From Oscillospiraceae bacterium (GTDB lineage: Bacteria > Bacillota > Clostridia > Oscillospirales > Oscillospiraceae): DNA of 64,000 nt. The stretch is from assembly GCA_024697625.1 (NCBI GenBank), contig JAILFJ010000034.1:1-64000 (forward strand). Direction: 5' to 3'. A model generated the notes under the pieces. The model was not told the origin of the DNA, did not search any database, and saw only the letters and a list, made by a program, of their open reading frames with translations. Both the position numbers and the translations under genes were made by a program. How positions within the stretch are numbered: position 1 is the first letter of the stretch; the number at the start of each line of letters is the position of its first letter. Below are positions 2,088 through 5,558 of the stretch, one piece after another.

Positions 2088-4859
2088 ATGATGGTCAACA
2101 ACAGAATTCTGAAGAAACTGATTTCGTTGCTTCTTGCGACTGTGATGCTCGGATCTTCCTGTGGCGAAGCCGTTGCGGATCTGGTGCAGCTTCCCGATGA
2201 TTTGAACCGGGTAGAAGAGGAAGTGTTTTATCATGATATTTCTCTATATGAGGTGGAGATCCCCTATGGGGTTGAGTCTATCGACTCAAAGGCCTTCGCC
2301 TACAGTTCTGTGAAAAGGATCAGAATACCGGACTCCGTGATCTGGATTGCTGACGATGCCTTTGAGGGAGTGAGCGACCTTACCATCTGCTGCAGTGAAG
2401 ATTCCTGTGCAAAGGAGCTTGCGGACAGTCGGGACGACTATGTGTGGGAACAACTGGGCGGACAGTATCATACTGAATCACTGGAAGAGCTAATCAACGA
2501 AATTCTGGAAGGCGTGGACGAGGCACCGTTTATATCGGAAAGTGAACTTGATCTGTCGCATCTGTCGGAAGAAGGCATTACGGATCCGGAGACCCTGAAA
2601 GCGATCCGGGAATACAATGAACTTCAGGATGAGTTGGGCATTCTTGTTGCTGAGTACCGGGAAGATACCGATGGGATTATTTCGGCACTGACGGAAAGCG
2701 CGGGGATTATCGAATCGGTGAATGTTGAAGAGACGGAGCAGGGCTTTGTCCTGAGCACTGAGAACGGAAGCTTCAGCGTGACAGGAGACGGATTTGACGC
2801 GCTTGACGAAGACTTTGAAGTACTGTCATCTGCGGCAACAGAAGACGGCAGTCTGTTCATGGAAATACAGAGCGGTTCCGCGGTCCTCTACCTGACCCTG
2901 AACAGCTCCGGAATCATGCTGAGCAGGAGCATGCATGTTACGGCTTCCAGTCTTGACTATTCTGCAGCTTCGGTAATGGATGTACTGGGCAAGATCGATT
3001 TCAGCTGGCTGATCTCGACTGCACAGTATCTGGCGGAAACAATCAATTCTGCCGTATCCGACTTTAGTAAATGGGTCAATGAAGGAATAAAGAAGCTTGA
3101 AAAAGAGATTCCTTTAATGGAAGCCAAACTCAAAAAGCTGCAGATTCAGGGAGCGGTAGACCCGGATGGCCCATTTCATGACGCTCGCGTCAAGGCAAAC
3201 TCTGAGCTGGTTTTTGCACGGGGATCAATTAAAACGCTCAAAGGTGTCCGTGCCAAAATCGCACGCTTTACCATACCGGAGACCTGCAGGGAAATTTTGG
3301 ACAACACAGCCAAAATCAGAACATTAAGAGGAATCTCCGGTCACGGTCATCCGACGGAGACGGAGAAGACAGAGGACGCTCAGGCATTAGTGGATCAGTT
3401 AACCGCACTTCTCAATACGTCGTACATTCTGGTAACCTGGGATCTGGTTGACGGCACTGCTTCCATTATAATGGATATCTCGGCTGTTGCCGGGTTTGTT
3501 GCCGGTGTATGCGCGGGCGGACCGGTGGGAGCTGTTACGGCTGTTGCTGCCACGGCGGCTGTAAAGAAAGTCGCTGTGGGAGCTATCCGTAAGCTTGTGT
3601 TGGCGGTAATAGGCAATATTGTGCGCAATGTTGCTACAAATGTTGCGTATGACAAAACGGTCGCAGCGGATGACAGACTGCATTCCTGTATGATCAGCGG
3701 CACGGTGAAAGACAAGGAGACGGGCAATCCGCTGAAAAACGTAACGGTCAGCTGCGAAACCGGTCAGACAGTGACGAATGCCCAGGGGCAGTATTCTCTT
3801 TCTGTGCCGACAGAGATCAGGGCGTATACTCTGACCTTTGCTGCAAGAGGCTATGTCACACAGAAGCTCACGGCCAATGTGAACGGGCGACTCTCCCTGA
3901 CGCTGGATCCGGTAAGTATGGAGCAGGCGGTAACGACCGTAACCGGCACTGTAACGGACGCGGAAAGCGGAGCCGCGCTTCAGGGAGTTCTGGTAACAAT
4001 CGGCGATGAGTCCGCGTTCACTGACGCAGACGGTAAATACACGCTGACCGTACCTTTCGGCGAATATACGGCGCTGTTCTCACTGGACGGTTATCATACG
4101 CAGGCGGAGGAACTGACGCTGGATAAGCCGGGAACAGTGCAGTGCAATATAGAGCTTCAAAAAGGCGCGGATCTGCCGGAGCCGGTGGTGACAAGAGATG
4201 TCATTACCTTCGGACGCTATGAGCAGGACGGAAATCTGTCAAACGGGCCCGAAGCAATCGAGTGGCTTGTCCTTGCAAAGCAGGGAAGCAGGGCTCTTGT
4301 CGTTAGCAGATATGCGCTGGAATCAAAGGCATACAATGATGAGCGTGTTGATATCACCTGGGAGACCTGCACCCTGCGCAGCTGGCTCAACAGCACCTTC
4401 CTGAACACAGCTTTCACGGCTTCGGAACAGAGCAGAATCCCGACAGTGACTGTCGTTAACAATGATAATACCAAATTCGGCACGGAGGGGGGTAACAACA
4501 CACAGGACAAGGTGTTCCTCCTGAGCATATCCGAGGTGGAGCAGTATTTCAGTTCAGAGAGCAAACGGGTTTATGACAGCGAAGACCCGGATGATTACTG
4601 GGTGTATTGGCCGGACAGAATGTGCGCTCCGACCGCATATGTTTATACGCAATGGGGTTGCACGTCCTGGGAAGATTGGCTAAATAGTTGGTATGAGGGA
4701 AATACCGAAATATGGGGCTGCTGGTGGTGGCTCCGGTCGCCCGGTGGCGATCAGGATAGTGCCGCGGGTGTCGACGGCGGCGGCTACCTCGACGACTTCG
4801 GCGACTACGGCGACGGCGGCGGCGTGCGCCCTGCTTTGTGGATAAATCTTGCATCTTGA
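2088..4859 (+). CDS. DGR target protein: signal peptide, LRR_5 fragment, two carboxypeptidase-regulatory-like beta domains, C-terminal DUF6273/CLec-like domain containing the variable repeat
   Basis: Signal peptide MMVNNRILKKLISLLLATVMLGSSCGEAVA; ISGTVKDKETGNPLKNV and VTGTVTDAESGAALQGV repeats; VITFGRYEQDGNLSNGPEAIEWLVL...TWETCTLRSWLNSTFL is DUF6273-like; ends CWWWLRSPGG...GGVRPALWINLAS, homologous to the TR. Confidence 0.9.
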   Translation: MMVNNRILKKLISLLLATVMLGSSCGEAVADLVQLPDDLNRVEEEVFYHDISLYEVEIPYGVESIDSKAFAYSSVKRIRIPDSVIWIADDAFEGVSDLTICCSEDSCAKELADSRDDYVWEQLGGQYHTESLEELINEILEGVDEAPFISESELDLSHLSEEGITDPETLKAIREYNELQDELGILVAEYREDTDGIISALTESAGIIESVNVEETEQGFVLSTENGSFSVTGDGFDALDEDFEVLSSAATEDGSLFMEIQSGSAVLYLTLNSSGIMLSRSMHVTASSLDYSAASVMDVLGKIDFSWLISTAQYLAETINSAVSDFSKWVNEGIKKLEKEIPLMEAKLKKLQIQGAVDPDGPFHDARVKANSELVFARGSIKTLKGVRAKIARFTIPETCREILDNTAKIRTLRGISGHGHPTETEKTEDAQALVDQLTALLNTSYILVTWDLVDGTASIIMDISAVAGFVAGVCAGGPVGAVTAVAATAAVKKVAVGAIRKLVLAVIGNIVRNVATNVAYDKTVAADDRLHSCMISGTVKDKETGNPLKNVTVSCETGQTVTNAQGQYSLSVPTEIRAYTLTFAARGYVTQKLTANVNGRLSLTLDPVSMEQAVTTVTGTVTDAESGAALQGVLVTIGDESAFTDADGKYTLTVPFGEYTALFSLDGYHTQAEELTLDKPGTVQCNIELQKGADLPEPVVTRDVITFGRYEQDGNLSNGPEAIEWLVLAKQGSRALVVSRYALESKAYNDERVDITWETCTLRSWLNSTFLNTAFTASEQSRIPTVTVVNNDNTKFGTEGGNNTQDKVFLLSISEVEQYFSSESKRVYDSEDPDDYWVYWPDRMCAPTAYVYTQWGCTSWEDWLNSWYEGNTEIWGCWWWLRSPGGDQDSAAGVDGGGYLDDFGDYGDGGGVRPALWINLAS
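4718..4836 (+). repeat. DGR variable repeat (VR), 119 bp, 3' end of target CDS
   Basis: 28 bp identical 5' block (ctgctggtggtggctccggtcgcccggt) and 19 bp identical 3' block (ggcggcgtgcgccctgctt) shared with the TR; all substitutions between them fall at TR adenines. Confidence 0.95.
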
Positions 4860-5006
4860 TTCTTCAAATCTGTCATCGTCCACTTTAATCATCTAAAAAA
4901 GAAAAATTAACTCAAGGAAAGAATGTACAGCGAGGGCGGGAAGGAAAACAAATGCCGCCGTAAGGCGGCCGAAAAAATTTTGAAAAATCGAGGGTTGTTA
5001 AATTGT

Positions 5007-5420
5007 ATGGAAAAAAGGCAGAGCGAGCTGACTGTAATCACTAAGACAAAGGAACTGAGTTCCTATATAATTACGATAACACAGAGATCGCCGAAACAGT
5101 TTCGATTTACTTTCATCTCCAAAATGCAGAATCTGTGCCTTGACTGTATCGAGTGCCTTTATCGAGCCAATGACACCTACGTGGCGTTTGGAGACCAAAA
5201 AGCATGGGACACTCGGATAGACTATCAACATAAGGCGATGACCAGCCTAAAGCTTCTGGGTTATATCTCGCTCCTGGCAATGGAGAACAAGTGCATTCTC
5301 CCAAAACAGTATGAGCAGATCTCACGCATGTCTTCGGAATGCCGTAATCTGCTCGGCGGGTGGATGAACAGCGACAGAAGAAGATTTCAGCCTCGGCCGG
5401 GCTGCAGTCCGGGGATCTGA
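5007..5420 (+). CDS. avd: DGR accessory variability determinant, Avd-like four-helix bundle protein
   Basis: ELSSYIITITQRSPKQFRFTFISKMQNLCLDCIECLYRAND...YQHKAMTSLKLLGYISLLAMENKCILPKQYEQISRMSSECRNLLGGWMNSDRR resembles Avd/four-helix-bundle proteins; lies between target and TR. ATG 5007 preferred over the ORF-track start 4923. Confidence 0.85.
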   Translation: MEKRQSELTVITKTKELSSYIITITQRSPKQFRFTFISKMQNLCLDCIECLYRANDTYVAFGDQKAWDTRIDYQHKAMTSLKLLGYISLLAMENKCILPKQYEQISRMSSECRNLLGGWMNSDRRRFQPRPGCSPGI

Positions 5421-5433
5421 TTATAATACTGTC

Positions 5434-5558
5434 CTGCTGGTGGTGGCTCCGGTCGCCCGGTAACAATCAGAATAATGCCGCGAATGTCAACAACGACGGC
5501 AACCTCAACAACAACGGCAACAACGTCGACAACAACAACGGCGGCGTGCGCCCTGCTT
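5434..5558 (+). repeat. DGR template repeat (TR), 125 bp, rich in AAC/AAT codons
   Basis: 35 adenines, 16 AAY triplets in the central block; flanks identical to VR; non-coding position between avd and RT. Confidence 0.95.

Follow-up and report, generated by a model that had tools for sequence, protein, structure and literature searches.

A complete chromosomal DGR with a DUF6273 target domain in an Oscillospiraceae bacterium: adenine-specific variation in one VR and its setting among related systems

The type DGR is that of the Bordetella phage BPP-1, with the genes brt, avd, and mtd. DUF6273 domains are themselves known as DGR targets: the DGRs of Faecalibacterium prophages that target DUF6273 (PMC11792537) and the tentaclins (PMC10743442) carry the VR in a DUF6273 lectin-like domain, and the fold of DUF6273 has been described as that of C-type lectins (PMC10743442). 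A cellular DGR is represented by Treponema denticola variable protein 1. The RTs of these elements are defined by the motif (I/V/L)GxxxSQ (PMC3521204). Surveys of TR/VR pairs have found G to be the commonest change and C the rarest, with about half of the changed adenines becoming G and wide variation from VR to VR (PMC3521204, PMC6642488); that individual VRs vary widely in spectrum was stated in 2012 (PMC3521204). Slippage on AAC repeats in multiples of three is likewise an earlier proposal (discussed in PMC12875486).

The window analyzed here, meaning the whole 64,000-nucleotide stretch of the Oscillospiraceae contig, holds a complete chromosomal DGR of known type, one more cellular DGR. 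The anatomy of the cassette is established by its parts, which follow one another in the order target with VR, avd, TR, and RT with none missing (Table 1). Pfam assigns the target DUF6273 (E 9e-30), CarboxypepD_reg (E 3e-26), and LRR_5 (E 3e-10). The accessory protein passes the PF22296 cutoff marginally, at 40.6 bits against 40; Avd is a usual but not a universal component of DGRs. The RT is placed in the DGR clade by motif, with LPLGNQTSQ and YMDD both present, and its closest solved structure by sequence in the PDB is 8ub7 (E 9e-43). A GC-rich end, GGCGGCGTGCGCCCTGCTT, is common to TR and VR and is a candidate IMH region, and positions 4837 to 4925 contain no perfect stem of at least 5 bp with a 3- to 8-base loop. 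The genes checked downstream of the cassette are housekeeping genes, and the cassette is therefore taken to be chromosomal rather than part of a prophage. Immediately upstream of the DGR target, at 117 to 2054 of the window, is a second LRR_5 (BspA-like) protein.

Table 1. Parts of the DGR cassette, in window coordinates
Feature	Position	Strand	Details
DGR target gene	2088..4859	+	ORF of 923 aa; LRR_5, CarboxypepD_reg Ig-like repeats, C-terminal DUF6273 ending in VR
VR1, 119 bp	4718..4836	+	Encodes final part of DUF6273; alignment to TR1
bAvd-like accessory protein, 165 aa	4923..5420	+	Pfam PF22296, E 3.9e-10
TR1, 125 bp, AAC- and AAT-rich	5434..5558	+	Alignment to VR1
Stretch holding the 6 bp absent from VR	5523..5539	+	Possible starts 5523 to 5534; AAC tract and one GTCGAC; gap enumeration
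DGR reverse transcriptase, 357 aa	5765..6838	+	RVT_1, E 7e-19; LGNQTSQ and YMDD

The VR thus falls within coding sequence, at the C terminus of a target whose DUF6273 domain was modeled with a pLDDT of 88.6. The predicted model's top structural match was to a portion of an IgA peptidase (9qa6, Z 17.2), and the next matches were C-type-lectin-fold proteins with Z scores of 5 to 7.4. Treponema variable protein 1 (2y3c) was the second-best match overall, at Z 7.4, and Mtd (1yu3) gave Z 5.0 to 5.4. A Z score below 8 is weak when taken singly, and the list of lectin folds is consistent across matches. As far as the model shows, the DUF6273 domain of the target has a C-type-lectin fold.

TR and VR were aligned with every placement of one 6-bp gap, and the alignment reproduced the boundaries and the single gap given in an earlier note on this DNA. 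That note had counted 19 A>G and 4 A>T changes among 34 adenines, with none at C, G, or T. The count is recovered with nothing else changed when the gap starts at 5523, 5524, or 5525 (the last, for instance, removing GTCGAC). With the gap at 5526 the tally becomes 18 A>G and 4 A>T among 33 adenines, again with no non-adenine change, and with a gap in the AAC run (5529 to 5534) it becomes 16 A>G and 4 A>T among 31 adenines plus one T>G. The last of these needs the smallest number of mismatches (21, compared with 22 or 23 for the adenine-only placements), so the claim of zero changes elsewhere hinges on where the gap is put. The absence of A>C stands under every placement. Adenine-specific TR/VR mutagenesis is likewise borne out, with 20 to 23 adenine changes against 0 or 1 non-adenine change; the probability that all mismatches fall on adenines by chance is 1e-16 to 4e-16, or 6e-14 when one non-adenine change is allowed.

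The adenine-only and the one-T>G alignments are near-equal readings, the former sparing one non-adenine change and adding two to three adenine changes. The 6-bp difference could accordingly represent two lost AAC units together with an ordinary T>G at the conserved GTC, which would make the VR not purely adenine mutated. We regard this as a serious possibility without preferring it: it has the fewest mismatches, and non-adenine changes occur in 46% of TR/VR pairs (PMC6642488), but it requires a rare kind of change where the adenine-only alignment costs two to three extra adenine changes, which are common here. The TRs of six related systems (TR2 of this genome, L044, L046, L047, L050, and L083) end in a block of nine codons of which the third is GTC or GTG, as in TR1, and the two-codon deletion can therefore be placed in the VR. 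It is in frame, and related systems repeatedly show in-frame indels of 3 or 6 bp, several of which fall within AAC/AAT runs.

The strong lean of VR1 toward A>G was set against 46 nonduplicate TR/VR pairs (VR1 and 45 others) from systems with RTs 25 to 100% identical, a convenience sample of related systems in which sites are not fully independent. The 45 further pairs, found near related RTs, show the same adenine pattern, mostly with 0 or 1 non-adenine change under a search that allowed at most two per ungapped segment; L047, which has two VR-like copies, dropped out of the set because of five non-adenine changes. In total there were 348 A>G, 209 A>T, and 139 A>C changes (50/30/20%). The VR1 spectrum of 18/4/0 (G/T/C) gives an A>G share of 0.82, second among the 46 after L040 (0.83). 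It departs from uniform misincorporation (exact P 3e-6), as the earlier note had proposed for this VR, and against ten close systems its G excess over the rest is modest (P 0.02, post hoc). At AAC, the first adenine became G eight times and T three times, and the second never became C. The fraction of adenines substituted, 0.65 to 0.68, falls within the 0.54 to 0.76 of ten relatives with RTs at least 52% identical. The earlier suggestion that a two-thirds fraction points to repeated or very efficient mutagenesis is thus unsupported, because each homing recopies the TR and the range among relatives includes this value.

A high A>G share might be a property of the enzyme, the RT of this cassette intrinsically inserting C opposite template A. 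In favor of this are VR1 itself and four systems of one genus (L083, L084, L099, and L100) with RTs 55 to 60% identical, whose spectra of 19/1/5, 17/3/8, 15/7/1, and 14/5/2 (A>G shares 0.61 to 0.76) might suggest a local trait of the RT; the BPP-1 RT in Escherichia coli also favors C misincorporation, at 59% (PMC12875486). We nevertheless consider an intrinsic RT bias unlikely. The RTs closest to this one (65% and 63% identical) accompany spectra of 9/7/5 and 8/7/6, RTs that align at 99% identity yield VRs with 6/5/6 and 9/1/5, and the BPP-1 profile at AAC, with T favored at the first A and C at the second (PMC12875486), is absent from VR1. By permutation, the A>G share differs from VR to VR by more than sampling would produce (P 0.0002), and over the 46 systems it bears no relation to RT distance (Mantel r -0.01, P 0.53). 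Host GC content was ruled out as a cause, the share showing no correlation with local GC content. The 46-pair test bears on the choice between RT and selection, and its outcome, an A>G share independent of the RT, agrees with PMC3521204 and is most readily explained by selection or sampling at individual VRs. Because published surveys already report such variability, the VR1 spectrum is ordinary in kind: its lean lies within the known VR-to-VR spread and is a trait of this VR, not one demonstrated for the RT. The earlier note had offered RT bias or selection and proposed a tally over VR alleles to separate them. No further VR alleles of TR1 were found in viral contigs (by exact motif) or phage records, and the other 101 genomes of the genus, searched as a source of more, held no RT above 37% identity; from the single allele and the 46-pair tally, VR-level selection or chance is the better of the options, though not proven.

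It is likely, in our assessment, that this is a complete and probably working chromosomal DGR, and that VR1 is a product of mutagenic homing in which the A>G changes come from the variant that was kept and 6 bp were lost by slippage. TR RNA would be copied into cDNA by the RT, with bAvd, under misincorporation opposite adenines, and the mutated cDNA would take the place of the VR in the lectin-like DUF6273 target; a single homing event, or a few, would have produced the VR now seen. The high share of A>G, which yields Asp and Gly codons, would most likely mark a variant retained through selection or by chance, added to the lean toward A>G that DGRs show in general. The in-frame loss would most likely stem from cDNA slippage in the AAC tract during copying. 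If AACAACAAC were copied into GGCGACGGC, the cDNA end would fit GTCGAC at 5 of 6 bases; since a nascent end bearing the VR's adenine changes (coding GGCGAC) would pair with the TR GTCGAC to that extent, misincorporation could itself have aided the slip. That the pair is instead an old duplicate whose differences arose by chance or from base composition, and no DGR product, has nothing in its favor beyond the repeat itself and is refuted by the adenine restriction (P 1e-16 to 6e-14) alongside an RT, an Avd, and a lectin-fold target, which leaves it a negligible probability.

A second pattern emerged at the codon level, where PMC3521204 had suggested looking. Across the 544 AAY sites of the 46 pairs, changes at the first and second bases are not independent. 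Relative to expectations obtained by shuffling second bases within each VR, TGY (Cys) was found once where 31.5 were expected (z -7.5), TAY (Tyr) 103 times against 74.6, CTY (Leu) 22 times against 7.6, and CAY (His) 20 times against 33.4. Among in-frame AAY sites the TGY count is 1 of 517, and the out-of-frame control comprises 27 sites, too few to separate RT coupling from selection. A near absence of Cys is what residue-level selection would predict, and coupling internal to the RT would be the alternative; one or the other must account for the strong dependence between the two adenines. A narrow literature check found no prior report of the Cys deficit.

The same genome carries a second DGR. 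Contig C38 (L072, C38:55000-60863) encodes another DGR RT, 52% identical, together with TR2 and an avd-like reading frame recognized by eye. Its VR2 is a DUF6273 domain on a different contig, at C166:53874-54374 (L063, C166:48500-54549), and ends 175 bp from the contig end. TR2 and VR2 differ at 19 of 33 adenines and at 1 of 86 other positions, with a spectrum of 10/5/4 (G/T/C). A search for overlap between the ends of C166 and C38 found none; the C38 DGR and VR2 are likely adjacent in the genome.

In all, the genome contains 26 DUF6273 domains, apart from the two TR matches. Sorted by eye from their tails, they comprise a family of eight (on C88, C11, and C166, including VR2), a family of seven (on C87, C75, and C56), and eleven remaining domains, including VR1; the first two families lie at L060, L062 to L066, and L068. 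In the VR part of both families, the first and second codon positions differ at 0.44 to 0.49 of sites and the third at 0.20 to 0.28, and upstream of the VR the relation is reversed (0.15 to 0.26 and 0.43 to 0.46). The eleven remaining domains lack this reversal (0.57 to 0.59 and 0.68). In the VR segments of all domains except VR1 and VR2, NNY codons make up 76%, against 50% upstream, and K, E, Q, M, and W together 7%, against 24%. Third-position conservation, richness in NNY, and poverty in these residues together form the footprint expected of tails written from AAY templates. At L060, L061, L063, and L066, individual open frames contain two or three DUF6273 domains (e.g., 1,286 aa on C88 and 1,517 aa on C75).

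Neither assembled TR fits the 14 domains with such tails (the two families minus VR2), and every domain other than VR1 and VR2 mismatches both TR1 and TR2 at 12% or more of non-adenine positions. Other DUF6273 domains as present trans targets of TR1 were rejected, with non-adenine mismatches of at least 13% against 0 for VR1. The assembly, which is 89% complete, yielded neither a third template nor a third RT, and a hypothetical AAC-rich consensus of the C87/C75/C56 family, used as a query, retrieved TR1 (84%) and the family itself with no further template. Most simply, the templates that once targeted the orphan tails would have been lost or have diverged, or a DGR absent from the assembly would target them. 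We tentatively propose, with less than even confidence, that the 14 orphan domains form a library of frozen variants from lost or replaced TRs beside two matched DGRs, and that natural VRs avoid Cys by a rule beyond the single-base spectrum.

Compared with described systems, the cassette shares with BPP-1 the TR/VR pair, adenine-specific change, Avd, a DGR-type RT, and a VR at the C terminus of a C-type-lectin-fold target. BPP-1 is a phage system, whereas the present cassette is chromosomal, beside housekeeping genes, and has a DUF6273 protein as its target. The BPP-1 profile would also lead one to expect A>C at the second A of AAC (PMC12875486), and VR1 has no such changes; few A>C at this position are likewise reported in PMC10743442. 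The Faecalibacterium prophage systems and the tentaclins resemble the present one in the placement of the VR, but their targets are phage proteins, whereas the protein targeted here is cellular and has LRR and Ig-like modules, in a genome with 26 DUF6273 domains. Treponema denticola variable protein 1 (2y3c) is, as here, the target of a cellular DGR and has a lectin-fold variable domain, although it is only 10% identical over the aligned part and its architecture is unlike that of the present target.
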